This document shows positions 35,459 through 62,014 of a DNA stretch of 64,000 nucleotides, piece after piece. The stretch's first letter is position 1. Every line of letters starts with the position of its first letter. The translations under genes were made by a program, and so were the position numbers. Source of the DNA: Pseudomonadota bacterium (GTDB taxonomy: Bacteria > Pseudomonadota > Alphaproteobacteria > Acetobacterales > Acetobacteraceae). The notes beneath the pieces were generated by a model. The model searched no databases. It was not told where the DNA came from and saw only the letters and a list, made by a program, of their open reading frames with translations. Location: assembly GCA_021851785.1 (NCBI GenBank), contig JAJZBV010000002.1, positions 62,001 to 126,000 on the forward strand, written 5' to 3'.

Positions 35459-36076
35459 TCACTTCGCGCCGAGTTGGCCCGCGAGCGCGCGGGCATAGGC
35501 GCCGAGGCGGGCATCGAGATCGCTCGGCACCTGACAGGCATAGCGGATGGTCTCGCCGATATCGTGGTAGCTCCGCACCAGGAGGTCATGGCGCTCGGCG
35601 ATCCCGGCGCGCTCGGCGGCGGCATCGCCGCCGGCATCGGCCGGTGTCGCCTGCAACGCCGCCTCATCGCTCTCGATCCGCTTGGCGAGCGAGCGCTGGC
35701 GGGCGCCGAGAGCCTTGAGCCGCGAGATCACCGTATCGCGTTCCTCGTTGGTCTGATCGACGAGAGCGGCGAAGGCGAGCGGCAATGTTTGGGCGCGCTC
35801 GGCCTCGGACAAGCCCCGCGCGAAAGCGGTCAGCTTCGCGATCCCGTCCTCGGTTGCGACGCCACGCGGCGAGATCTCCTCGATCAGCGCCGCAAGATGC
35901 GGATCGGCGTGCCAGTCCGCCCCCGCGGGCGGCGCCGGGCCGGCCCAGTAGGTGGCGAAGGCGAGATGCGGCACCAGGCGTTGCTGGCATGGCCAGTCGG
36001 GATCCGCAGGAGCGGCCGCGTTCGCGTTCGCGGCAAGTGAGAGGAAGGAAAGCGCGAGCAGGGTACGGCAAAACAT
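35459..36076 (-). CDS. Periplasmic protein of unknown function in Ped/Lut-like operon
   Basis: Exported protein of 205 residues: signal peptide MFCRTLLALSFLSLAANANA, then a mostly helical domain with two cysteines (WPCQQR near the start and YACQVP near the end) that could form a disulfide. I recognise no family. It follows the ABC permease gene by 14 bp and is probably the last gene of the operon, so it may be a periplasmic partner of the transporter. The ATG at 36076 has GAGAGG upstream; an earlier ATG at 36094 would overlap the permease gene. Confidence 0.75.
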   Translation of the reverse strand: MFCRTLLALSFLSLAANANAAAPADPDWPCQQRLVPHLAFATYWAGPAPPAGADWHADPHLAALIEEISPRGVATEDGIAKLTAFARGLSEAERAQTLPLAFAALVDQTNEERDTVISRLKALGARQRSLAKRIESDEAALQATPADAGGDAAAERAGIAERHDLLVRSYHDIGETIRYACQVPSDLDARLGAYARALAGQLGAK

Positions 36077-36090
36077 GAAAACAGAACCTC

Positions 36091-36897
36091 TCATTCCGCG
36101 CCAGCCCGGCGCGCCATCAGGCCGCGCCCAGGATCATAGCCCCAGACCGCGAGCGCGACGAAAACCACGAGATAGACGGTGACCACCAGCGCCGAAAGGA
36201 CATTGAAGCGGTCATAGAGCGCAAAGCGGATCAATTCGGTGGCGTGGGTGAAGGGGTTGATCTCGGACAGCCAATAGATCACCGGACTCGCCTCCTCGAC
36301 CCGCCACAGCGGATAGAGCGCCGAGGAGGTGAAGAACATCGGGAAAATCACGAAATTCATGACGCCGGCAAAATTCTCCAACTGACGAATGAAGGAGGAC
36401 AGCACGAGCCCGAGCGCGCCCAGCATCAGCCCGGCGAGGATGAGGGCGGGCAACACCGCGAGATAGCCGCTGAGCGGCGGTTCGATATCCCAGAACCAGG
36501 CGATGGCCATGAAGATATAGGCTTGCACCACCGACACCGCGACGCCGGCGAGCAATTTGGCGACCAACAGGAACCAGCGCGGAAACGGGCTGATCATCAG
36601 CGTTTTCATGCTGCCCATCTCGCGATCATAGACCATCGAGAGCGAGCTTTGCATGCCGTTGAAAAGCTGGATCATGGCGAGAAGTCCGGGCGCGATATAG
36701 ACCTCGTAGGGGATATAGGTCTCATAAGGGGGAATGATCGAGACGCCGAGCACGAAATGGAAGCCTGCGGCGAAAATCGCGAGCCACACCAGCGGCCGCA
36801 CCAGGGCGGAGACGAAGCGCCCGCGCTGATTGAGCCAGCGCAGCGCCTCACGCCGCACGATGCCGGCGAGACACCGCGCATATTGCAGCGCGGTCAT
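36091..36897 (-). CDS. ABC-2 type permease, PQQ-alcohol-oxidation-associated (PedC-like)
   Basis: Membrane subunit of 268 residues with six predicted transmembrane segments and an ABC2_membrane pattern (YDREMGSMKTLMISPFPRW, FPMFFTSSALYPL, NPFTHATELIRF). Its partners (ATPase, YVTN propeller, substrate-binding protein) identify it with the permease of the PedA1A2BC system of Pseudomonas putida and the Lut system of Methylobacterium. Both are tied to PQQ-dependent alcohol oxidation and lanthanide use. The ATG overlaps the ATPase stop (ATGA). Confidence 0.85.
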   Translation of the reverse strand: MTALQYARCLAGIVRREALRWLNQRGRFVSALVRPLVWLAIFAAGFHFVLGVSIIPPYETYIPYEVYIAPGLLAMIQLFNGMQSSLSMVYDREMGSMKTLMISPFPRWFLLVAKLLAGVAVSVVQAYIFMAIAWFWDIEPPLSGYLAVLPALILAGLMLGALGLVLSSFIRQLENFAGVMNFVIFPMFFTSSALYPLWRVEEASPVIYWLSEINPFTHATELIRFALYDRFNVLSALVVTVYLVVFVALAVWGYDPGRGLMARRAGAE

Positions 36898-37697
36898 GAC
36901 GGCTCTCCACCGGTCGCGGCGGCGCCATCGGCGATCAGCCGGTCGAATGCGGCCTTGAGCGTCGGCTCGCCGGCCTCGGCGAGAATCCCCTCATGCGGCC
37001 CGGAGGCAACCACCCGGCCCTGATGCAGAATGACGATGCGGGAATCCGGCGCGGCCTCGTCGATGAGATGGGTCGCCCAGAGAACACCGAGCCCCCGACT
37101 ATGACAAAGCGCGCGCACATGTTCGAGCAGGAATTGCCGGCTCGCCATGTCGAGGCCGACGGTCGGCTCGTCGAGCAGCAGCAGCGACGGGTTATGGATC
37201 AGCGCGCGGGCGAGTTCGACGCGCCGGCGCTGGCCGCCGGAGAGCAGCCGCACCCGTTCGCGCCGGCGCGCGGCAAGGCCGACGCGCGCCAGCTCCTCGC
37301 CGATGCGCGCTATCGCCTCGCCGCGCGGCATGCCGTGGAGCGCTGCGTGATAGAATAAATTCTGCTCGATGGTGAGATCGAGATCGAGGGTCGCTTGCTG
37401 AAACACGACGCCCATGCGCCGAAGCGCGGCTTGCGCGTTTTTCTGGAGATCATGGCCGAAGACGCGGATCGCACCATTGCGGCTATGATAAAGCCGTGTG
37501 ATCAGCGCGAACAAGGTCGTTTTGCCGGCGCCGTTGAGGCCGAGGAGGACGGTGAAATCGCCTTGGCCGACACTCAGCGAAACATCACTGAGCGCCTGGC
37601 GGGCACCGAAGGCATGGCTCAGCCGTTCGACGACCAGCGGCGGTGCCTCGGGCGGCGGTTCCGCGTCGCGCATGGCCGCGACGCTCTCACGGGCCAT
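36894..37697 (-). CDS. ABC transporter ATPase, PQQ-alcohol-oxidation-associated
   Basis: ATP-binding subunit of 267 residues. Walker A GLNGAGKTT, Q-loop VVFQQ, signature LSGGQRRRVELARAL, Walker B LLLLDEPTVGLD and H-loop ATHLIDE are all intact. It partners with the PedC-like permease, whose start overlaps its stop, and starts 11 bp inside the end of the beta-propeller gene, so all are translated as one operon. Confidence 0.9.
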   Translation of the reverse strand: MARESVAAMRDAEPPPEAPPLVVERLSHAFGARQALSDVSLSVGQGDFTVLLGLNGAGKTTLFALITRLYHSRNGAIRVFGHDLQKNAQAALRRMGVVFQQATLDLDLTIEQNLFYHAALHGMPRGEAIARIGEELARVGLAARRRERVRLLSGGQRRRVELARALIHNPSLLLLDEPTVGLDMASRQFLLEHVRALCHSRGLGVLWATHLIDEAAPDSRIVILHQGRVVASGPHEGILAEAGEPTLKAAFDRLIADGAAATGGEPS

Positions 37698-38661
37698 AAA
37701 CCACGCCCCAGGGCAGGTGGCCGACCGGCACCGATTTCAAAACCTTGAGATCCCCGACATCGATCACCGACATGTCGTTGCTGACCCCGTTCGCGGTATA
37801 GAGCGTCTTGCCGTCGAAGGAAAAATCCATGTGCCAGACACGCTGGCCGACGAGGAGGTATTTTTTCACGGCAAAGCTCGCGGCATCGATGACGGCGACG
37901 CGATTGGCGGGGCCAAGGGCGACGAAGCCCCATTTCCCGTCCGGCGACAGATTGATCCCGACCGCTTGAATGGTTTCCGCGGGGACGCCAGGGATCGCGA
38001 AGGTGATGGTGTGGATCACTTTATGGCTGGCCACGTCGATGATCGAAACATTGCCGCCGACTTCGGAGGAAACCCAGACCTGGCCGCCATCCTTGGTGAA
38101 TGCCGCGAAGCGCGGCCGCGAGCCGACGAGAACGCTCGCGATCATTTTATGAGAGGCGGCGTCGATGAAATGCGCCATGCTGGTGGTCTCGGAGGTGTTG
38201 ACGATGGTCTTGCCGTCCGGGCTCACCACCATGCCTTCGGGCTCGACGCCGGTCGGGATCTCATCGCTGATGCGCCCCGAGGCGATATCGACGATCGAGA
38301 CCTGATTGTCATCCTCGTTGGAAACATAAAGGGTCTTGCCATCCGGGCTGAGCGCGAAGGTTTCCGGATCGGGCCCGCTTTGCAGGGTGCGCGTCACCGA
38401 GAGGGTGGCGATGTCCAGCTCTTCGATGTGATCGGCGTCCGAGGTGCAGACATAGAGGCTTTTGCGATCCTTGGCGAGCAGCAAGCCGCGCGGGCGCGCG
38501 CCGACCGGGACCGTTTTCACGATCGCGAGGGTTGCCGCATCCACCACCGTGACGGTGTTATCCTTCTCGTTGGACACATAGAGATGATCCGCCCGCGCCG
38601 CGCCGGCGGCGAAAACCAGGCAGCAGAGCGCGGCGAGGCCGCGTTTCAATTGAGATGGCAT
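37687..38661 (-). CDS. Periplasmic YVTN beta-propeller protein, PQQ-catabolism-associated
   Basis: Exported protein of 324 residues: signal peptide ending ARADHLYVSN, then seven or so YVTN-like blades with repeated SPDGKTLYVSNE and VSIVDIAS units. It corresponds to the beta-propeller (TIGR03866-like) found with PQQ-dependent alcohol dehydrogenases and their ABC system. It probably acts in the periplasm as binding or scaffold protein for the transporter. It overlaps the substrate-binding protein gene upstream and the ATPase gene downstream by about a dozen bases each. Confidence 0.88.
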   Translation of the reverse strand: MPSQLKRGLAALCCLVFAAGAARADHLYVSNEKDNTVTVVDAATLAIVKTVPVGARPRGLLLAKDRKSLYVCTSDADHIEELDIATLSVTRTLQSGPDPETFALSPDGKTLYVSNEDDNQVSIVDIASGRISDEIPTGVEPEGMVVSPDGKTIVNTSETTSMAHFIDAASHKMIASVLVGSRPRFAAFTKDGGQVWVSSEVGGNVSIIDVASHKVIHTITFAIPGVPAETIQAVGINLSPDGKWGFVALGPANRVAVIDAASFAVKKYLLVGQRVWHMDFSFDGKTLYTANGVSNDMSVIDVGDLKVLKSVPVGHLPWGVVYGP

Positions 38662-39893
38662 GTGCTCTCCGGCTGATCGACACCGAGCGTGTCGGTTTCG
38701 AAAAATTCATGTAAAAATCCGGGCTGGGGCGAAATCGATACCAGCGAGCGGGAATCGGCGAGGAGGACCGGCTGGCGCAATTGCCCGTCCCAGGCGCGGA
38801 AGCTGAGGCGCTCGCCCTTGAACGCGGCGAGTTCGAATTTCGGGCTACGCAAATAGGCGCCGATCACCGCGGGATCGCCGCTATGGGTGCGGATCGCGGC
38901 CTCGCCGAGGGCGCGCACCGCCATCCAGGCGCCGTAATCGCGTTCGGTCATCCAGCGATGGGCGGCGCGGAGGAAGCGGTTTTGCAACTGGGTCGCGCCG
39001 GTTTCGTCATAGACCCGCGACCATGCCGTCGGCACCAGCCCCTGCGTTCCGGCGACCGGGCGGGCGAGGGTCGCGCGATAGCCGAGTTCATCGCCGAAAT
39101 TGTCTTCCTCGTCGGCGACGACCAGAAGATCGTAATCGACGCCCTGGGTGATATTGGCAACCTCGGTATTGACCTCGAAATGCCCGGTATCGGCGCGCTG
39201 TTCGGCGGGGTTGAAGCTCCACATCTTGTCGGCGACGATCTTGATCTGGAATTTCTTTGCCGAACGCCGCACGGCATCGGCATAGAGCTTGTCATCGGCG
39301 GTTTGTCCGGCGAGCAGCATGATCCGCCGCCAGCTCTTCACCACCAGATACTGCATCAGCGAATCGGCGAGCATCGCCCGGCTCGGCAGGACATGCAGAA
39401 CGTTGCGCCGGCAGCCCTCGGCGCGCAGCCGGTCATCGGCATCGGTCGCATCGATCAAGGTCGCAGCTCGCGCGTCGGGCAGATCGGCGAGTTTGAGCAG
39501 CAGCGACGCCGGCACGTCGGTGACGAATTCGCGCGCGCCCTTGCCGAGCCGGTCGCGGAACGCCGCGATCACCCCGGCCTCATCGGGCGCGACCACCGGA
39601 TCGAGGATGAAATCCTGGCCGGTGAAATGGCCGGTCGTGTTATTGTCGGCCAGCGCGACGCCGGCGCCGGCGAGACCCTCATCGGCCGGCGGCTGGTCGA
39701 GATAGCTTTCGGGTAAGCTGCGTTTGACCGCGAGCGCGAGATAGACGATCGCGATCGGCGTCGCCGAGGCGGCTGACGTCGCGGCTGGCGTCGCGGCCGG
39801 CGAGGCGGGCGCTGGCGGCTGATCCGCGGCCGAGGCCGGCCGGACAACGGCGGCGGCGAAAACCAGCGCGATCCGCAAGGCGCGGAAAACCAT
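38646..39893 (-). CDS. Periplasmic substrate-binding protein, PQQ-alcohol-oxidation-associated ABC system
   Basis: Protein of 415 residues with a signal peptide (to about residue 23), an Ala/Pro spacer, and a type I periplasmic-binding fold (IAIVYLALAVKR, GAGVALADNNTTGHFTGQDF, RNVLHVLPSRAMLADSLMQYL, YDLLVVADEEDNFGDEL). It matches the binding protein (TIGR03863-like) of the Ped/Lut ABC cluster. It is first in the operon, with a good RBS (AGGAGGAG) before the ATG, and divergent from the gene at 39979 across an 85-bp spacer likely to hold both promoters. The ligand is not known; lanthanide-chelator complexes, alcohol-oxidation intermediates or PQQ-related molecules are candidates. Confidence 0.87.
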   Translation of the reverse strand: MVFRALRIALVFAAAVVRPASAADQPPAPASPAATPAATSAASATPIAIVYLALAVKRSLPESYLDQPPADEGLAGAGVALADNNTTGHFTGQDFILDPVVAPDEAGVIAAFRDRLGKGAREFVTDVPASLLLKLADLPDARAATLIDATDADDRLRAEGCRRNVLHVLPSRAMLADSLMQYLVVKSWRRIMLLAGQTADDKLYADAVRRSAKKFQIKIVADKMWSFNPAEQRADTGHFEVNTEVANITQGVDYDLLVVADEEDNFGDELGYRATLARPVAGTQGLVPTAWSRVYDETGATQLQNRFLRAAHRWMTERDYGAWMAVRALGEAAIRTHSGDPAVIGAYLRSPKFELAAFKGERLSFRAWDGQLRQPVLLADSRSLVSISPQPGFLHEFFETDTLGVDQPESTCHLN

Positions 39894-39978
39894 CCGTCTC
39901 CTCCTCTTGTGCGCGGGGCTGGCGCGCGTTCATCATCATGCTGCCAGCTTATGGCATCGCATAACAGAGGGAGGCGTT

Positions 39979-40473
39979 GTGAACAAATTTTCGCGTCTTG
40001 GACTGATTTTTCCGCTCGTTTTTTCCGGGCTCCATGCCGCCGCCGCGGCGCCGCCGACGATCGCGGTGTTCGACTTCGCGCTGATCGACACCTCACCGGC
40101 GCCGCCGAGCGAGGCCGAACGCGCGCGGCTGGCAGCACTCGGTGGCGACTTGCGCGCTCGCCTCGCGCGATCGGGCCGCTATCAGGTGGTCGATTCCGCC
40201 CCCGCCCGCGCGGCACTCGCCAAGCTGCCGGATATCATGAACTGCAATGGCTGCGAGCTTTCGCTGGCGCGACAACTCGGCGCCAGCGAGGCGGCCTATG
40301 GCTGGGTGCAGAAAGTGAGCGATTTGATCCTCAACATCAATGTCGTGATCGAAGATGCCGATAGCGGGCGCAAGCTTGCCGCCGGGAGTGTCGATATCCG
40401 CGGCAATACCGATGAAAGCTGGCGGCGCGGCCTCGATTACCTGCTCGAGGAACGCATCCTCTCGACACCGTGA
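39979..40473 (+). CDS. DUF2380/DUF3280-like exported protein
   Basis: Protein of 164 residues with a signal peptide (ending AAAAAPPT) and a domain like DUF2380/DUF3280: TIAVFDFALIDTS, RYQVVDSAPARAAL, LGASEAAYGWVQKVSDLILNINVVIEDA. Such proteins occur in PQQ-alcohol-dehydrogenase gene clusters. The CxxC in NCNGCEL may bind metal or form a disulfide. Start is the GTG at 39979 with GGGAGG upstream. Divergent from the binding-protein gene, which suggests a shared regulatory spacer. Confidence 0.8.
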   Translation: MNKFSRLGLIFPLVFSGLHAAAAAPPTIAVFDFALIDTSPAPPSEAERARLAALGGDLRARLARSGRYQVVDSAPARAALAKLPDIMNCNGCELSLARQLGASEAAYGWVQKVSDLILNINVVIEDADSGRKLAAGSVDIRGNTDESWRRGLDYLLEERILSTP

Positions 40474-40591: not shown

Positions 40592-41578
40592 ATGCTACGC
40601 CGCCGTGCCGTTCTGAAAACCGCGTTCGCCGGAGCGATGGGAGCGGCCGCGCCGCGCCTCGCGGAGGCCGGACCGCCGTTGCGCATCGGCGTGTTACGGT
40701 TCGGCTCCTTTTCCTGGGTGCTCGACGTCATCCGCCGCCACGGCTTCGATACCGCCGCCGGGGTTGCGCTCGACATCCGCCAATACGCCGGCTCGCCAGC
40801 GGCGCAGGTGGCCCTGCAAGCCGGCGAGGTCGATGTCATCCTGCAGGACTGGCTATGGGTCGCGCGGCAGCGGAGCGGCGGCGCGGATTGGAGTTTCATT
40901 CCGTTTTCCAGCGCGCTCGGCAGCGTCATCGTGCCCGGCGACTCGCCGATCAGGACACTTCCCGATCTCGCCGGCCAGCGGCTCGGTGTCGCCGGCAGCG
41001 CGCTCGACAAGAGCTGGCTCATTCTGCGCGCCTATGCCGAGCGGCACGACCATCTCGATCTCGCCCATGCGACGCGGCCGAGTTTCGGCGCCCCGGCGCT
41101 GCTCGGCGAGGAACTGCGGAGCGGCCGCCTCGACGCCGAACTCACCTTCTGGCCCTTCGCCGCCCGCGCCGAGGCCGCCGGCATGCGCCGCGTGCTGGCG
41201 ATGGAAACCGCGGTCGCCGGGCTCGGCATCGCGCCGGAGGTGCCGTTCGTCGGCTATGTCTTCTCGGCGCGCTGGGCGAACGCCCAACGCGGGTTGCTCG
41301 ATGGCTTCGTCGCGAGCGCGGCCAGGGCGCAGACGTTGCTCGCGACATCGGACCCCGAATGGGAGACGATCGCGCCACTGACCGGGGCGGCGAACGCGGC
41401 CGAACTCGCGCATCTCCGCGACGCCTACCGCGCCGGTATCCCGCGTCTTTCGCCCGCCGCCGCGCAAGCCGCCGCCGCCGCGCTGTTTCAGGTTCTCGCC
41501 GCGACCGGCGGCCCGGCCCTGGTCGGTGACGCCAAGGAGCTGGCGCCGGGCACGTTCTGGCGGACGGGGCTCTCCTGA
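40592..41578 (+). CDS. ABC importer substrate-binding protein, NitT/TauT type
   Basis: Periplasmic binding protein of 328 residues with a twin-arginine-like leader (RRRAVLKTAF) and the type II fold seen in SsuA/TauA: LRIGVLRFGSFSWVLDVI, QAGEVDVILQDWLWVARQR, SALGSVIVPGDSPIRTLPDLAGQRLGVAGS. Together with the next two genes it forms a complete importer. The ligand is unknown; the context (Ped/Lut operon, cytochrome c, TonB receptor) argues against a simple sulfonate transporter. The ATG follows GGGAGG. Confidence 0.85.
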   Translation: MLRRRAVLKTAFAGAMGAAAPRLAEAGPPLRIGVLRFGSFSWVLDVIRRHGFDTAAGVALDIRQYAGSPAAQVALQAGEVDVILQDWLWVARQRSGGADWSFIPFSSALGSVIVPGDSPIRTLPDLAGQRLGVAGSALDKSWLILRAYAERHDHLDLAHATRPSFGAPALLGEELRSGRLDAELTFWPFAARAEAAGMRRVLAMETAVAGLGIAPEVPFVGYVFSARWANAQRGLLDGFVASAARAQTLLATSDPEWETIAPLTGAANAAELAHLRDAYRAGIPRLSPAAAQAAAAALFQVLAATGGPALVGDAKELAPGTFWRTGLS

Positions 41579-42321
41579 ACCGGGTTTCGGCCAGCGCGCG
41601 CCTCGCCTCGATCGTCGTTTTCCTGCTGGTCTGGGAAGCGGCGGCGTGGCTGGCCGAGAGCCGATTGCTGCCGCCCGCCTCGCGGGTGTTGCGGGCGATG
41701 CTGCATTTGGCGCTGCATGGCGATCTCCTCGCCAATCTCGGCATCACCCTGCTCCGCGTCGCCGGCGCTTTCACGCTGGCGATGGTGGTCGGCTCGGCGA
41801 TCGGGATCGCGCTCGGGATTTGGCGCCGGCTCGATCTCGCGTTCGATAGCTGGCTCACGGTTCTGCTCAACCTGCCGGCGCTGGTCTCGATCATGCTGAT
41901 GTATGTGTGGTTCGGCTTGAACGAGCCGACCGCGATCATCGCCGTCGCCCTCAACAAGCTGCCGTCCACGGCGGTGACGCTGCGCGAGGGCGCGCGCACG
42001 CTCGACCGCAGCCTGCTCGAGATGGCGCGCTGCTATCGCATGGGGCGATGGGCGGTGCTGCGCCATGTCATCCTGCCGCAACTGACGCCGTATTTTTTTG
42101 CCGCCGCGCGGTCCGGCCTCGCGATCATCTGGAAGATCGTGCTGGTGGTGGAATTGCTCGGCCGCAGCGACGGTGTCGGCTTCGCGATCGAGCAATATTT
42201 TCAACTGTTCGATGTCACCGATATTCTCGCCTATACCCTTGCCTTCATCCTGGTCGTGCAGGCCATCGAATGGGGAGGGTGGCAGCCTTTGGAACATTGG
42301 GCCAATCGGTGGCGGCGGTGA
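41575..42321 (+). CDS. ABC importer permease, TauC/SsuC type
   Basis: Membrane subunit with six predicted transmembrane segments and the EAA loop (EGARTLDRSLLEMARCYRMGRWAVLRHVILPQLTPYF). The frame contains no ATG or GTG before the first membrane helix. The best start is a CTG at 41575 in the overlap CTGA with the binding-protein stop, giving 248 residues, the usual family length. A TTG at 41665 would remove the first helix. The stop overlaps the ATPase start as GTGA, so the three genes are tightly coupled. Confidence 0.8.
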   Translation: MNRVSASARLASIVVFLLVWEAAAWLAESRLLPPASRVLRAMLHLALHGDLLANLGITLLRVAGAFTLAMVVGSAIGIALGIWRRLDLAFDSWLTVLLNLPALVSIMLMYVWFGLNEPTAIIAVALNKLPSTAVTLREGARTLDRSLLEMARCYRMGRWAVLRHVILPQLTPYFFAAARSGLAIIWKIVLVVELLGRSDGVGFAIEQYFQLFDVTDILAYTLAFILVVQAIEWGGWQPLEHWANRWRR

Positions 42322-43073
42322 TTCTCGAGGTTTTGATCCGGCGCAAGACGTTTCCGGGCGCGAGGGAGCCGGTGCTCGCCGATCTCGCTTTCGCGCTCGG
42401 CGCGCACGAGATCGTCGCCGTGGTCGGGCCCTCCGGCTGCGGCAAGACGACACTGTTGCGGCTGATTTCCGGTCTCGATCAGACTTTCGAGGGGGAGATC
42501 ACCTGGACGCAGAGTGGGCCGAGGCAGAGTGGGCCGGCGCCGGCGGGTGTCGCGCCGCCGCGCCTCGGCATGGTGTTTCAGGAGCCGCGGCTCCTGCCGT
42601 GGCGGACGGTTTGGCAGAATTTGGCGCTGGTTTTGCCGCCGGGGCAGGACGCGGCGGCGGCGGCGCTGCTCAAGCGGCTTGGCCTGTGGGCCGAGCGTGA
42701 TTCCTACCCGAGCCGGATTTCGCTCGGCATGGCGCGCCGGGTCGCGATCGCCCGCGCCTTCGCGATCGCGCCGGCTTTGGTGTTGCTCGATGAACCCTTC
42801 GCGTCGCTGGACGCGGGCAATGCCGATCTCGGCCGCGCCGTGCTGCTGGAAGCCTGGGAGGCGCGGCCGACGGCGGCGCTCCTGGTCACGCATGATCTCA
42901 CCGATGCCGCCGCTCTCGCCGATCGCGTGCTGATGCTGGCCGGAAGGCCGGCGCGCATCATCGCCGATATCCCGATCGCCGCGAACGAGCGGCGCGGCGA
43001 TCGCGCGACCGTCGCGCAACTCGCCGCGCGCTTGCGCGATATTCAGGAAAGAAGCGTTATTTCAGGCTTTTGA
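42318..43073 (+). CDS. ABC importer ATPase, TauB/SsuB type
   Basis: ATPase of 251 residues: Walker A GPSGCGKTT, Q-loop VFQEPRLLPW, a degenerate signature ISLGMARRVAIARA in place of LSGGM, Walker B LVLLDEPFASLD and H-loop VTHD. A short DNA duplication gives QSGP twice (about residues 66-73). GTG start overlaps the permease stop. Its last 17 bases overlap the end of the convergent cytochrome c gene. Confidence 0.9.
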   Translation: MILEVLIRRKTFPGAREPVLADLAFALGAHEIVAVVGPSGCGKTTLLRLISGLDQTFEGEITWTQSGPRQSGPAPAGVAPPRLGMVFQEPRLLPWRTVWQNLALVLPPGQDAAAAALLKRLGLWAERDSYPSRISLGMARRVAIARAFAIAPALVLLDEPFASLDAGNADLGRAVLLEAWEARPTAALLVTHDLTDAAALADRVLMLAGRPARIIADIPIAANERRGDRATVAQLAARLRDIQERSVISGF

Positions 43074-43434
43074 GATAAGCGATCACGTTCTGGCGCTCGG
43101 CTTCGCTGGTCAGGCCCGGGAAAACCATCTTGGTGCCGCTCACCATCGCCCGCGGGTTGGTGAGCCATTTGTCGAGCGAGGCGTCATCCCAGGTGATGTG
43201 CGACTCCTTCATGCCGGCGGAAAACGTGTAATTCGGCACCTCCGCGGCGGGCTGGCCGGCGACGTTCCAGAGACTCGGCCCGAGCTTGTTCACGCCCTTT
43301 TCCGGCGAATGGCACAGCGTGCATTTCTGCTGAAACAGGGCCTTGCCGGCGGCAGCGTCGCCAGCCGCGTGCGCCATGGGCGCCAAGGCCAGCGCACCCA
43401 AGGCGAGTGTCGCGGTCGCAATCAACCGATGCAT
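43057..43434 (-). CDS. Class I c-type cytochrome
   Basis: Small exported cytochrome of 125 residues: signal peptide to about AHAAG, heme motif CTLCH, the Pro-containing KLGPSLWNVAG segment, and the axial Met in GTKMVFPG. This matches soluble cytochrome c2/mitochondrial-type cytochromes. It could accept electrons from a periplasmic quinoprotein dehydrogenase, consistent with its neighbours, or serve in respiration generally. ATG at 43434 follows AAGGAG; the frame to 43584 is not coding. Confidence 0.92.
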   Translation of the reverse strand: MHRLIATATLALGALALAPMAHAAGDAAAGKALFQQKCTLCHSPEKGVNKLGPSLWNVAGQPAAEVPNYTFSAGMKESHITWDDASLDKWLTNPRAMVSGTKMVFPGLTSEAERQNVIAYLKSLK

Positions 43435-43558
43435 CTTGTTCTCCTTCGATAGAAGACTAAATTGGGCCTGTTTATCAAAGTCATGCGCCGGATCTGTCGG
43501 CGCGGCTTGAGTATAGGAACACCGGCGCGCGCTTGTCGAGGCGCGGCGTCCCCGGGCG

Positions 43559-45901
43559 TCAAAACGAGACCGTGATGCCGCCATAGCCCTCGATCGGGTT
43601 GGCCGGCGCGAGCGCGCGTGGGTTGGAGGCGCCGGGGGCGATCGGGATCGGCACCAGATTGGTCGGGCTGAGCGTGCCGTAAGTGTAATAATTGGCGTTG
43701 AAAGCGTTGTTGACGAGGCCGAACAGCTTGATGTGCTTGGTGAGCTGATAGCTGGTGTTGAAGTTGGTCACGAAATAGGCGCCGGTGGGGGGCAGCAGAT
43801 TGGCCGGATCGCCGAACAGATATTGCCCGTCCTCATAAGTGCCGTTGGCGCCGATCTGCCACGCCTCGGTGATATTGTAGGAGACTCCGATCTTGGCGAT
43901 CCAGGGGGGAATGCCGGGCAGCGTGTCGCCGGGACGGATATGGATGTTGCCGTTGGCGTCGGCGCCGGGATTGTTCGGGCTCGAAATGGTCAGGCCGTTC
44001 TGATAGGTCGCGTTGATGTAGGAGGCGTTGGCGAAGAATTCGAATTTTCCCTGTGTCAGCGTGCCGCCGATATCGACGCCCTGGCGGCGCGTATCGCCGA
44101 TATTCTGATAATAGGCCGCGCCCTGGAGCGGGCTGTAGATGAACTGGATGTCGTTCATCGTGTCGGTGCGGTAGGCGCCGACGTTCCAGACGAAATTGGC
44201 GTTGCCATAGGGCGTGAACTGGCCACGCAATCCCGCTTCGAGCGTATGCGCGATCACCTGTTTGAGGTTGGGGTCGCCGGCGAAGAAATTGGAGAGCGTG
44301 CATGGGCTCGCGGGGTCGGAGCAGGATAATTCCTCCGGCGTCGGCGCGCGGTTCGATTCGGCAAAATCGGCGTAGGACGTGACATGCGGGTTGATTTTGT
44401 AGGTGAGGCCGATTTGCGGATTGAAATGCGCATAATCATGGTTGCCGGAAAGCGCGCCGTTATTGGAATCGACGCCGACGAGATCGGTTTGCGCGTAATT
44501 GAAGCGCCCGGCGACGGTGAGGGTGAGCGCCGGCGTGATATCGAACATATCGATGAAAAAGAGGCCGTAATAATTGGTCGTGTCATTGAGCCGGACCGGC
44601 ATGATCGACTGGTTGGCCTGATCGATGGTGATGCCCGGCCCGACGAAGCTCATCTGGTCATAGGGGTTGAGGCCGCCGAGCAGCGTGCTGCCGGTGAAGG
44701 TGTTCTGGCTCCCGTCATAGCTCGCGCCGGCGGTGAAATGATTGGCGTGGCCGAAAAGGGTTCCGGTGTTGGTCGCTTGGACGGAAAATCCATAGCCGTT
44801 GGTGTTGGTGTCCTGCACGTTGAGCTGGGAATAGGGGCCGCCATTGAGGAAATTCGGAATCGGGGCGAAGCCCGTCGTGGTCAGGAACGTTCCCGGCTGC
44901 TCGCAAAGATAGGCGCCGCAGGGAGAGCCGTTGGCGACGTTGCCGTTGACGACGCTCTGGAGGAAATTCTGGAAATAGGCGACGGTTTGGACGGAGGTAT
45001 GGTCGTTGACGTCATAGGAGCCGTTGGCGGCGATCGCGGCGTATTTGTTGCCGAGAAAATTGGGCGAGGTGAACACCGCGGAGCGATTGGCATCCAGCTC
45101 CTGCACCGGCACCGTCGCCGGCTCGTTCAATTGATTATCGGCGGCGGTGACGTTGATGTGCAGCTCGGCGCGGTCGCCACGCCAGCCGAAATCGGCATAG
45201 AGCTTGTTGAGATGCGAGGATTCGTCCTGCCGCCAGCCGCCGGAATAGAGCCCGTCGAGCGCGGTGTAGACCGAGGCGTTGCCGAATTGCGCGCCGTATT
45301 CGCCATAGCCTTGCAGGCGGCCATAGGAGCCGCCGAGCATGGTCGCGTCCATGCCCTGGAACGTAAATCCGTTCTTCATCTGGACAGCCATCGCGCCGCC
45401 GAGCGCGTTCAGGCCGAAAACCGGGTTGGTGCCTTGGAATTCGACGCGATCGATGGCGACACTCGGCAGCAGATCCCAGTTTACGACATCGCCGAACGGC
45501 TGATTGAAGCGCACGCCGTTCACATAGACCGCGATACCCTGCGAATTGCCGGCGATCGGCGAGGCCTGGAAGCCGTGGTAGAAAATATTGGGCGAGAAAC
45601 TGTTGCCGCCCTCGTTGCCGATCGAGACCCCTTGCGCCTGGGCGTTCAGGCTGCCGAGCAGATCGGGCGTGCCATCGAAGGAGAGATCGTGGCTGGTCAG
45701 AACCTGCGTCTCGTCCGGCACCTTGTCACGGCTGACATCGGAGCCGAGCAGCGGCGTCGAACCGATGACGTTGGTGTCGGGGAGGGCGGTGATGTCGGGG
45801 AGGGTGGTGACCGGGGACGCCGGCGCCTGTTGCGCCGCGGCGCGACCCGCCTCGCCGATCGCGAACAGCACCGCCAGCGCCGCCAAAGCGAAGCCCCGCA
45901 T
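43559..45901 (-). CDS. TonB-dependent outer-membrane receptor
   Basis: Receptor of 780 residues: signal peptide (to about residue 24), plug domain (about 55-180, with VYVNGVRFNQPFGDVVNWDLLPSVAIDRVEFQGTNPVFGLNALGGAM as its typical end), and a 22-stranded barrel ending in an aromatic residue (GGITVSF). Energised uptake of a chelate or large organic ligand is expected. Location between a Ped/Lut-like ABC system plus NitT-type importer and a two-component system suggests the ligand belongs to that pathway, for instance a lanthanophore or PQQ, but siderophore or another ligand cannot be excluded. Divergent from the histidine kinase with a 230-bp spacer. Confidence 0.93.
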   Translation of the reverse strand: MRGFALAALAVLFAIGEAGRAAAQQAPASPVTTLPDITALPDTNVIGSTPLLGSDVSRDKVPDETQVLTSHDLSFDGTPDLLGSLNAQAQGVSIGNEGGNSFSPNIFYHGFQASPIAGNSQGIAVYVNGVRFNQPFGDVVNWDLLPSVAIDRVEFQGTNPVFGLNALGGAMAVQMKNGFTFQGMDATMLGGSYGRLQGYGEYGAQFGNASVYTALDGLYSGGWRQDESSHLNKLYADFGWRGDRAELHINVTAADNQLNEPATVPVQELDANRSAVFTSPNFLGNKYAAIAANGSYDVNDHTSVQTVAYFQNFLQSVVNGNVANGSPCGAYLCEQPGTFLTTTGFAPIPNFLNGGPYSQLNVQDTNTNGYGFSVQATNTGTLFGHANHFTAGASYDGSQNTFTGSTLLGGLNPYDQMSFVGPGITIDQANQSIMPVRLNDTTNYYGLFFIDMFDITPALTLTVAGRFNYAQTDLVGVDSNNGALSGNHDYAHFNPQIGLTYKINPHVTSYADFAESNRAPTPEELSCSDPASPCTLSNFFAGDPNLKQVIAHTLEAGLRGQFTPYGNANFVWNVGAYRTDTMNDIQFIYSPLQGAAYYQNIGDTRRQGVDIGGTLTQGKFEFFANASYINATYQNGLTISSPNNPGADANGNIHIRPGDTLPGIPPWIAKIGVSYNITEAWQIGANGTYEDGQYLFGDPANLLPPTGAYFVTNFNTSYQLTKHIKLFGLVNNAFNANYYTYGTLSPTNLVPIPIAPGASNPRALAPANPIEGYGGITVSF

Positions 45902-46131: not shown

Positions 46132-47517
46132 ATGGCCTCGCTCCGCACCCGCTTGATCGTCCTACCCACCGCAATCCTCCTGCTCGGGCTGATCGCGACG
46201 ATCGGCTTTTCCGTCTGGCTCGGGCGCCTTCGCGTGCAGGCGGAGACCGCGTCCGGGATGCGTCTCGCGACGGTTCTGGTGCGCGCCGAACTCGCCGACA
46301 TCGCCGGCGACGCGAGGCCAGGCCCGATTCTCGCCCGGCTGGAGACGGCGCTCCCCAGTGTCCGCCATGTCGATCTCCTGATCATGCCGGCGCCCGATCT
46401 CCTGGCTTTCGGCGAGACCCTGTTCGTGAAGGGCGACGCGGCCACCGTGCCGCGATTTTTCGTCCGTCTGCTCGCTTCGCCGACGACCGCCCTCAGCTTT
46501 CCCATCCTCCGCGCCGGCAGCGTTTATGGCACGGTGATCCTGATGCCCAATCCGCTCGACGAGATGTGGGAAATCTGGGGCGAGTTGCGCTTTCTCGCCG
46601 CCCTCCTCGCCGCGCTCGCGCTGACCATCACCGCGATCCTGGTCGCCCTCGTCCATTTCGCCCTGGCGCCGATCAGCGACCTCGCCGAAGCACTCGATCA
46701 GCTCGAGCGTGGCCGCTTCGATATCGCGCTCGCGCCGATTCGGGTGCGCGAATTGCGCCGCATCGGCGCCCGCTTCGACAGTCTCGCCCGCTCGCTCGGG
46801 CGTCTCAATGAGGATAATCACCGGCTGATCGATAAGCTGATGTCGCTCCAGGAAGAAGAGCGCAAGGAACTCGCCCATGAGCTGCATGACGCCTTCGGCC
46901 CCGCCCTCTTTGCCATTCGCGCCGATGTCGCCGGCATCCTGCGGGCGCTGCGCGGCCCGGCGCCGGTGAGCCCGGCGATCGCCGAGCGCGCGCGGGCGAT
47001 CGCCGGGCTCACCGATGGCATCCAGGGCATCACCACCCGCCTTTTGGAGCGGCTTCGCCCGCTGGTGCTCGACGAGCTGGGGCTGGATGCCGCGCTCGAC
47101 CAGGTTTTCACCGCCTGGCAGAGCCGCTATCCCGAGCTGCGCTGCACGCTGGAGATCGAGCCGGTCGCGCTCGGCCGCGCCGACGAGGCGCTGGCGCTGA
47201 CGCTTTATCGCGCGGTGCAGGAATGTCTCACCAATATCGTGCGCCATGCCGGCGCGAGCGCCCTCCGGGTGCGGTTGCGGGCGCTGATCGCGGAAGATGG
47301 CGGCGTGCGGCTTCTCGAACTCACCATCGCCGATAACGGGCGCGGGTTCGCGCCCGATCAGCGCTTCGGCTTCGGGCTGCTCGGGATCGCCGAGCGCGTC
47401 CGCGCGCTCGGCGGGCGGATCGAGACCGGTCGCGCCGCCGAGGGCGGGGCGCTGGTGCGCTTGACGCTGCCGCTCGGCCCAGCCAAGGAAAAAACATGCC
47501 CACCGCCATCCTGCTGA
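46132..47517 (+). CDS. Sensor histidine kinase, NarL/DegS type (HisKA_3)
   Basis: Membrane kinase of about 461 residues: two transmembrane segments (about 10-30 and 160-185) enclosing a periplasmic sensor of some 130 residues, HAMP (about 185-235), HisKA_3 dimerisation domain with the phosphorylated His in LAHELHDAFG, and HATPase_c with QECLTNIVRHAG, ADNGRGF and GFGLLGIAERV. The phosphate partner is the next gene, which it overlaps by 22 bp. No SD precedes the ATG chosen; a TTG at 46102 with AAAGG or ATGs further upstream are alternatives. Confidence 0.9.
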   Translation: MASLRTRLIVLPTAILLLGLIATIGFSVWLGRLRVQAETASGMRLATVLVRAELADIAGDARPGPILARLETALPSVRHVDLLIMPAPDLLAFGETLFVKGDAATVPRFFVRLLASPTTALSFPILRAGSVYGTVILMPNPLDEMWEIWGELRFLAALLAALALTITAILVALVHFALAPISDLAEALDQLERGRFDIALAPIRVRELRRIGARFDSLARSLGRLNEDNHRLIDKLMSLQEEERKELAHELHDAFGPALFAIRADVAGILRALRGPAPVSPAIAERARAIAGLTDGIQGITTRLLERLRPLVLDELGLDAALDQVFTAWQSRYPELRCTLEIEPVALGRADEALALTLYRAVQECLTNIVRHAGASALRVRLRALIAEDGGVRLLELTIADNGRGFAPDQRFGFGLLGIAERVRALGGRIETGRAAEGGALVRLTLPLGPAKEKTCPPPSC

Positions 47518-48170
47518 TCGATGACCACCCGATCGTTCGCGACGGCTGCCGCCGCTTGCTGGAGGCGCGCCCCGAATGCGTGGTTCTCGAAGCCGGCTCC
47601 GGCGCCGAGGGGCTGGCGATGAACCGCCGCCATGGCCCCGATCTCATCATCCTCGATCTCAACCTGCCGGACGGCAACGGCCTCGAATTCCTGCGCCGCC
47701 TGCATGGCGAGACACCGGCGGCGAGGGTGCTGGTGTTCAGCATGTATGAGGAGGCGGCGTTCGTCGCGCGCGCGCTGGAGGCCGGCGCGCTCGGCTATCT
47801 CACCAAGCACGATGACCCCGAGGCGCTGCTCGCGGCGGTGGAAGCCTTGATGCGCGGCGAGCGCTATCTCGGCCATCGGGTGGCGCAGAAACTTGCCTTG
47901 CTCAGCTTGCAGCCGGCCGGCAATCCGCTGCGCGGCCTCACGGCGCGAGACTTGGACGTGCTCGATCTGCTGGGCAATGGCGCGGGGCTGGCCGAAATCG
48001 CCGCGGCGCTCACACTCAGCTACCGCAGCGCCGCCCATATCGCGGCACAATTGCGCGCCAAGCTGCGTTTGCGCAGCCAGGCCGCATTGGTGAAATTCGC
48101 GGTGGAAACCGCGCCCGAGCGCCGCGCGCAACGTAGTGAGCAAGGGGGGGGTGGCGAGCAAGGGGGGTGA
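47496..48170 (+). CDS. LuxR/NarL-family response regulator
   Basis: Protein of 224 residues: receiver domain with acidic pocket D9/D10, phospho-acceptor D54 (LIILDLNLPDG) and Lys in YLTKHD, followed by a C-terminal LuxR helix-turn-helix (LTARDLDVLDLLGNGAGLAEIAAAL). Partner of the upstream kinase. Pairs of this kind control quinoprotein alcohol dehydrogenase genes in other bacteria (for example AgmR/ExaE/PedR-type regulators), which fits the neighbourhood. The C-terminus has a Gly/Gln-rich tail. Confidence 0.92.
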   Translation: MPTAILLIDDHPIVRDGCRRLLEARPECVVLEAGSGAEGLAMNRRHGPDLIILDLNLPDGNGLEFLRRLHGETPAARVLVFSMYEEAAFVARALEAGALGYLTKHDDPEALLAAVEALMRGERYLGHRVAQKLALLSLQPAGNPLRGLTARDLDVLDLLGNGAGLAEIAAALTLSYRSAAHIAAQLRAKLRLRSQAALVKFAVETAPERRAQRSEQGGGGEQGG

Positions 48171-61733: not shown

Positions 61734-62014
61734 TTATGTGCCGATGAGCGTGAGGATATGGTTAATCCCACGCGGCCTCATGCCGCGGGGACAGCGAATT
61801 GCGCGTGGCATGAGCCTTGTCCAGCCGAGGAGGACGATATCGCCTGATAAAGACCCGTGCCAAAATTGATTTTGGGCGCGATGGCCGTCCCCGTCGGCGA
61901 ACGGAAGCGGTTCTGGAGCGCGGTGATCTCGCTTACGCTCCGCCACCTCGCCCCAGTTCTTTGTTTGATCGCGTGATTCAGACCTGCGGCGATTCCGCCT
62001 TCGGTCATCACGCG

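Follow-up and report, generated by a model that had tools for sequence, protein, structure and literature searches.

A Lut/Ped-type operon beside a PqqT-type ABC transporter in a genome of the Acetobacteraceae, a probable cofactor-supply locus for lanthanide-PQQ alcohol dehydrogenases

Results

The stretch of DNA analysed here (the window, 64,000 nucleotides; positions 62,001 to 126,000 of JAJZBV010000002.1, assembly GCA_021851785.1) comes from a bacterium of the Acetobacteraceae and contains two adjoining transport systems, an operon of the Lut/PedA1A2BC type on the minus strand and a divergent ATP-binding cassette (ABC) transporter of the PqqT type. The former type is tied to the use of lanthanides (Ln) and the latter to pyrroloquinoline quinone (PQQ), an organic cofactor that works with rare-earth metals in alcohol-oxidising enzymes. 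The window lies on contig C45 of a 3.16 Mb genome that is 99% complete and consists of 66 contigs. Domain and family scores were obtained with NCBIfam and Pfam, and the bits were compared with the curated cut-offs.

The Lut/Ped-type operon

The operon reads from 39893 to 35459 on the minus strand. It begins with a periplasmic binding protein of the LutA/PedA1 type (38646-39893; TIGR03863, 463.4 bits, cut-off 413.6), which is the single locus in the genome above the TIGR03863 cut-off. This is followed by a YVTN beta-propeller of the PedA2 type (37687-38661; TIGR03866, 476.2 bits, cut-off 287.3), presumably LutB from its position, an ABC ATPase of the LutE/PedB type (36894-37697; TIGR03864, 343.1 bits, cut-off 302.25), an ABC-2 type permease of the LutF/PedC type (36091-36897; TIGR03861, 399 bits, cut-off 241.35) and a periplasmic helical protein of 211 amino acids (35459-36094). 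Successive frames share 16, 11, 4 and 4 bases, and because adjacent frames overlap the five genes are read as one operon. The initial annotation had placed these genes and the divergent gene beside them correctly, and the hidden Markov model search it proposed against the four TIGR families gave scores above the cut-off for all four within this one operon. On these profile scores the operon is assigned to the Lut/PedA1A2BC importer type.

The last gene had been described as a 205-residue uncharacterised possible subunit. Its place is right, but the protein has 211 residues, counted from an ATG that overlaps the permease stop, and it is homologous to LutG and found in the place of LutG. No NCBIfam or Pfam match was obtained at E<=0.01. 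Homologues are present in 66 of 80 related loci and lie directly downstream of the permease in 61, counts that are lower bounds and biased towards close relatives since the 80 best were taken from at least 591 loci and several are short. In the Methylobacterium loci the order is permease, homologue of the 211-residue protein, TonB receptor, and the order lutF-lutG-lutH is described for Methylorubrum extorquens in the accessible text of PMC7391723. The identity to the proteins of Methylobacterium loci L073 and L092, which were compared in place of LutG of strain AM1 itself, is 30-31%. By homology and position the protein is thus designated LutG-type; deletion of lutG slows La-dependent growth of M. 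extorquens (PMC7391723).

Eight residues (W34, P35, C36, W50, R119, Q133, C187 and P190) are unchanged in all 59 aligned LutG-type sequences, and the invariance of C36 and C187 makes a disulfide between them likely. The predicted model is helical (pLDDT 94.0, pTM 0.81). The fold gave no hint of a function: none of 352 PDB matches at E<=10 reached E<=0.001, the best being 0.074.

The PqqT-type transporter

Beyond position 40473, outside the part covered by the initial annotation, lie the ABC transporter of the PqqT type, a cytochrome c gene, a TonB receptor gene and a two-component system. The transporter (40592-43073, plus strand) comprises a predicted PQQ-binding protein (40592-41578), a permease (41665-42321; SsuC/TauC-like at 81.1 bits, far under the cut-offs of those models) and an ATPase (42321-43073, within an open reading frame of 41907-43073) that belongs to an ortholog group kept beside SsuA/C-like genes in related loci. 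The permease has a TTG start as listed and its true start may be upstream. The beginning of the binding protein (window 40592-40650), MLRRRAVLKTAFAG, looks by eye like a twin-arginine signal.

Sulfonate import was the first reading, made from the SsuA-like scores, and was dropped after the PDB search gave PqqT. The binding protein matched entries 9b1u and 9b1v with a phmmer E of 1.1e-60 and 9ooz likewise at about 1e-60, and its predicted model matched 9b1v in Foldseek with an E of 1.9e-32, TM scores of 0.84 and 0.93 and 39% identity; the titles of the matched entries include 'PqqT with PQQ bound' and 'with PQQ and Gd3+ bound'. The curated SsuA model was not reached (TIGR01728, 32.1 bits, cut-off 163.5), while a PqqT-type family profile scored 340.9 bits on PqqT and 33.1 on E. 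coli SsuA. Both sequence and predicted fold thus place the protein with PqqT rather than with SsuA, and 40592-43073 is taken as a PqqT-type ABC importer adjoining the Lut operon. K140 aligns with residue K115 of the PqqT chain and is kept in 40 of 41 orthologs; W187 is aligned with PqqT as well and kept in 41 of 41. Residue K115 is probably K142 of the published mutant, in which a change altered La3+ binding (PMC12828617). For PqqT of Methylobacterium extorquens AM1 the accessible part of PMC12124388 gives a Kd of 50 nM for PQQ.

Quinoprotein dehydrogenases elsewhere in the genome

The statement that the operon has no quinoprotein dehydrogenase beside it holds within what TIGR03075 detects, as none of the 14 matches in the genome is on contig C45. 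Seven PQQ-dehydrogenase genes were distinguished, on contigs C42, C32, C53, C38, C34, C35 and C26, a set that leaves out weaker TIGR03075 matches on C4, C55 and C3; four are over the cut-off and three under it (374-468 bits). All seven have an Asp two residues past the catalytic Asp (D-x-D), which is used as a sign of Ln-type enzymes in PMC11996626 as far as its accessible text goes, and none has the Ca-type residue. The enzyme on C42 is XoxF-like with the motif HDEWDYDGINE, so that the suggested search for xoxF/exaF-type enzymes with the Ln-binding Asp elsewhere in the genome was positive. Near it a TIGR03865 CXXCW rhodanese-like protein is encoded. Contig C30 carries PqqE (552 bits, cut-off 381); the genome thus has both PQQ dehydrogenases and a PQQ synthesis gene, whose joint absence had been named as grounds for rejecting the link with lanthanides.

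Distribution among alphaproteobacterial genomes

Co-occurrence was studied in a sample of 289 alphaproteobacterial genomes, of which 40 scored at least 350 bits with TIGR03863 (next score 67.6) and are called Lut genomes. Related genomes were counted as independent draws in the Fisher tests and the counts ignore phylogeny. The PqqT type occurs in 36 genomes, 35 of the 40 Lut genomes and one of the other 249 (Fisher 1.5e-38); with the curated TIGR03863 cut-off, which 31 genomes pass, a hand recount gave 26 of 31 against 10 of 258. The PqqT-type profile derives from proteins encoded close to lut, and linked copies therefore favour the association. However, 13 of the 36 PqqT copies are near neither the Lut gene nor any of the dehydrogenase positions used for the comparison, a part of those listed, so that proximity alone fails to explain it.

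A PQQ dehydrogenase at E<=1e-60 is present in 76 of the 289 genomes, 38 of the 40 Lut genomes and 38 of the 249 others. Among genomes with such an enzyme, PqqT is found in 33 of 38 with Lut and in one of 38 without. The best dehydrogenase match has D-x-D in all 38 of the former and in eight of the latter (Fisher 8e-14), the remainder of which have Thr (29) or a degenerate motif (1). These counts indicate that Lut and PqqT go with the Ln-type enzyme and not with PQQ use in general, and that the uptake systems for Ln and PQQ occur together.

The five Lut genomes without PqqT (G023, G054, G142, G208 and G223) all have PqqE. Of the Lut genomes, PqqT is present in 7 of 7 that lack PqqE and in 28 of 33 that have it (in one, PqqE is matched only in part, at the end of a contig; Fisher p 0.56). 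The idea that PqqT simply replaces PQQ synthesis is therefore unsupported as a rule. In G024, the only genome with PqqT and without Lut, PqqT-ABC lies close to a D-x-D dehydrogenase gene on contig C71 (locus L127) and adjoins the gene of an ATPase with 320 bits against the LutE-type profile; the Lut binding protein is absent and the genome may hold a Lut relic or variant. The locus is patchy within the family, since Lut, PqqT and PQQ dehydrogenases at E<=1e-60 are all missing from the four sampled relatives (G021, G132, G213 and G282).

The LutG type was found in 15 Lut genomes and in none of the other 249, and is thus specific, not universal. A SoxYZ-like carrier scored over its cut-off in 24 of 40 Lut genomes against 2 of 249. 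A sulfur-relay role with this carrier, which is co-located in Azospirillum thermophilum, was considered and set aside; the carrier appears to be a fellow traveller, and nothing links it to the cargo of the transporter.

Neighbouring genes

The gene between the two transporters (39979-40473, plus strand, GTG start) encodes an exported DUF3280/DUF2380 protein, as the initial annotation proposed (PF11684, 167.6 bits, cut-off 30.1). DUF3280 is found in 13 of the 289 genomes, all of which carry the Lut binding protein (13 of 40 Lut genomes against 0 of 249), and in 5 of the 13 it adjoins a PQQ dehydrogenase gene. This points to an accessory of Ln-dependent oxidation. According to the accessible text of PMC7895386, DUF3280 is among the top-20 unexplained Pfam correlates of the Calvin cycle; because all 13 genomes with it in the present sample encode the Lut binding protein, the correlation could stem from a coupling of Ln-dependent methanol oxidation to CO2 fixation.

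Downstream of the PqqT-type transporter a cytochrome c is encoded on the minus strand (43057-43449; PF00034 42 bits; NF043008 89.6 bits, under the cut-off of 240). A cytochrome c beside PqqT-ABC is also found in the Halomonas locus L125 and in the genome of locus L028. The TonB-dependent receptor (43559-45901, minus strand) is 42% identical, across 785 alignment columns, to the receptor that follows LutG in Methylobacterium locus L073 and is the sole match in the genome, at E<=1e-10, to an alignment of LutH-type receptors, to which it is assigned. A sensor histidine kinase, a possible Ln/PQQ regulator (46147-47517, plus strand; HisKA_3, HATPase_c), and a response regulator of the LuxR type (47496-48170, plus strand; Response_reg 97.4 bits, GerE 23.7 bits) complete the region. 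The LutH-type receptor is within reach in 34 of the 80 related loci, and in 21 of these the kinase and regulator are also near.

PqqT and Lut in other loci and plasmids

The PqqT type was found in 10 of 13 named genomes tried, including all four of Methylobacterium, and not in two Paracoccus and one Neorhizobium. It lies directly upstream of xoxF in two of three Methylobacterium regions, the third being a stretch without a XoxF-like gene. In AM1 the genes META1p1737-1739 before xoxF1, listed as an unnamed ABC transporter, are up with La3+ (log2 2.7-3.1, xoxF1 4.4; PMC6414531, Table 2); from their position they are probably pqqT-ABC. The lutH promoter is repressed by La3+ according to the accessible text of PMC7391723. 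Because the probable pqqT genes of AM1 rise with La3+ and lutH falls, PqqT-ABC seems geared to the running of Ln enzymes rather than to Ln hunger.

In Halomonas L125 the pqq genes, xoxF, LutG, the Lut operon, cytochrome c and PqqT-ABC lie within about 16 kb, and in three gammaproteobacterial loci (L039, L041 and L045) the PqqT-ABC genes are inserted between propeller and ATPase. The permease occurs in 191 plasmid records and the PqqT type in 168, counted as two separate record lists, and the numbers per organism are similar (permease/PqqT: Sinorhizobium 72/74, Pseudosulfitobacter 40/40, Azospirillum 14/5).

An exported protein of about 120 amino acids with a 'YPT...CMxxNG' look was seen by eye to recur near PqqT-ABC, cytochrome c or pqq genes (L121 5218-5586, L125 14139-14507, L119 18484-18843). 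It has no NCBIfam match, and the L121 copy may by its position be orf7 of AM1.

Discussion

The locus is very likely a cofactor-supply station for Ln-PQQ alcohol dehydrogenases that are encoded elsewhere in the genome. The initial annotation had proposed the handling of lanthanides or of a PQQ-alcohol intermediate. The four families, PqqE and the D-x-D motifs support this overall, with the amendment that the PQQ half has its own PqqT-type transporter next door, because of which the locus most likely serves both metal and quinone. Ln, probably chelated, would cross the outer membrane through the LutH-type receptor and be taken into the cytoplasm by the binding protein, propeller, ATPase and ABC-2 permease (LutA/B/E/F), with LutG as a presumed periplasmic helper of the import. 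The divergent transporter would bind PQQ in the periplasm and recapture or import it, and the two-component system may sense how much cofactor or alcohol is available. Both transporters would feed Ln-PQQ enzymes made from other loci. Ln transport by these Lut copies and PQQ binding by this PqqT are proposed by analogy with work on other species; the exact roles given to propeller and LutG, and the signal of the regulators, are likewise conjectural.

Several points weigh against this reading. The permease belongs to the exporter-like ABC-2 class, and the direction of import rests on mutants of other species. PqqT is absent from 5 of the 40 Lut genomes, while LutG and DUF3280, found in only 15 and 13 of them, are not universal. 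Three of the seven dehydrogenases of the host are under the TIGR03075 cut-off, D-x-D was scored only on the best dehydrogenase match of each genome, and META1p1737-1739 are absent from the AM1 transposon list in the accessible text of PMC7391723.

The ABC-2 transporter could alternatively be an exporter, for example of PQQ, or of Ln that goes back to the periplasm to be loaded into enzymes, the binding protein acting as acceptor. Its permease and ATPase also resemble DrrA/DrrB-like exporter families, Ln must reach periplasmic enzymes, and cytoplasmic release followed by re-export is raised in PMC7391723. However, the same paper reports periplasmic accumulation of La3+ in lutA, lutE and lutF mutants of M. 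extorquens, which fits failed import, and growth with the Ca-type PedE did not need PedA1A2BC (PMC6839425), which argues against PQQ as the cargo; export is thus considered improbable. Still less credit is given to the idea that the cargo is an alcohol, aldehyde or other carbon intermediate, a reading that follows the old name 'alcohol ABC transporter' and the NCBIfam description of TIGR03861. Pseudomonas putida without pedA1A2BC grew on oxidised intermediates with and without La3+, and its PedE-dependent growth was unaffected (PMC6839425, accessible text); moreover the Ln-type motif accompanies the Lut operon (D-x-D in 38 of 38 genomes with Lut, 8 of 38 without). Least probable of all is that 40592-43073 is an ordinary sulfonate/taurine importer that simply lies close by: Pfam and NCBIfam show just NMT1/SsuA-like similarity, at low scores, while the profile score on PqqT is about ten times that on E. 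coli SsuA, and 35 of 40 Lut genomes have PqqT against 1 of 249 others, with 13 of 36 copies unlinked to Lut and to the entered dehydrogenase places.

Within the cofactor-supply reading, Ln and PQQ import might form one physiological unit that partly handles an Ln-PQQ complex. PQQ would then be a second, home-made lanthanophore, PqqT would capture metal-loaded PQQ in the periplasm, and the two transporters would jointly prevent the loss of either half of the cofactor. This bolder version is rather unlikely, although it would account for the association of PqqT with Lut and the Ln-type enzymes and for its near absence where the PQQ dehydrogenases are of the Ca type.

Every part of the locus is known in kind, and the informative addition is the pairing of Lut with PqqT. 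The link was not found in the literature searched, which excluded subscription papers including the primary PqqT reports; the accessible parts of PMC12628762, PMC12482762, PMC10848612 and PMC12997753 discuss lut homologues and contain no such link. Ln-responsive 'ssuABCD' genes, possible candidates for pqqT-ABC, are read as oxidative stress in that part of PMC10848612. The pairing bears on how bacteria gather and load a rare-earth cofactor, above all on the chemical form that passes either membrane and on the reason for bringing a periplasmically used metal into the cytoplasm. Should the Lut importer regularly be accompanied by PqqT-type PQQ uptake, both would have to be studied jointly, and names can be offered for genes now labelled 'sulfonate transporter', 'DUF3280' and 'hypothetical protein'.

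Comparison with known systems

The locus resembles the lut cluster of Methylorubrum extorquens AM1 (lutA-lutH, lanM) in its binding protein, propeller, ATPase, permease, LutG and LutH-type receptor. On methanol with La3+, lutE and lutF mutants show no growth and lutA, lutB and lutG mutants are impaired (PMC7391723, accessible text). Unlike in AM1, the propeller and ATPase frames overlap here, which leaves no room for lutC and lutD between them, the LutH gene is about 8 kb from that of LutG, behind the PqqT transporter, and the DUF3280 gene is divergent and adjoins that of the binding protein. A search of the window for lanM with one simple pattern gave no EF-hand-like frame of 60-400 amino acids.

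The same four transporter proteins make up PedA1A2BC of P. putida KT2440, which is required for growth at low La3+ (PMC6839425). By published description P. putida has a rhodanese gene beside pedC and no LutH homologue (accessible parts of PMC6839425 and PMC12997753), whereas in the present locus the gene after that of the permease is the LutG-type one, and a LutH-type receptor is encoded nearby. The PqqT-type protein agrees with PqqT of AM1 (9b1u, 9b1v, 9ooz) in sequence, predicted fold and the aligned K140 and W187; it differs in that the identity is 39% and that its gene stands beside lut, not beside xoxF as in two of three Methylobacterium regions.

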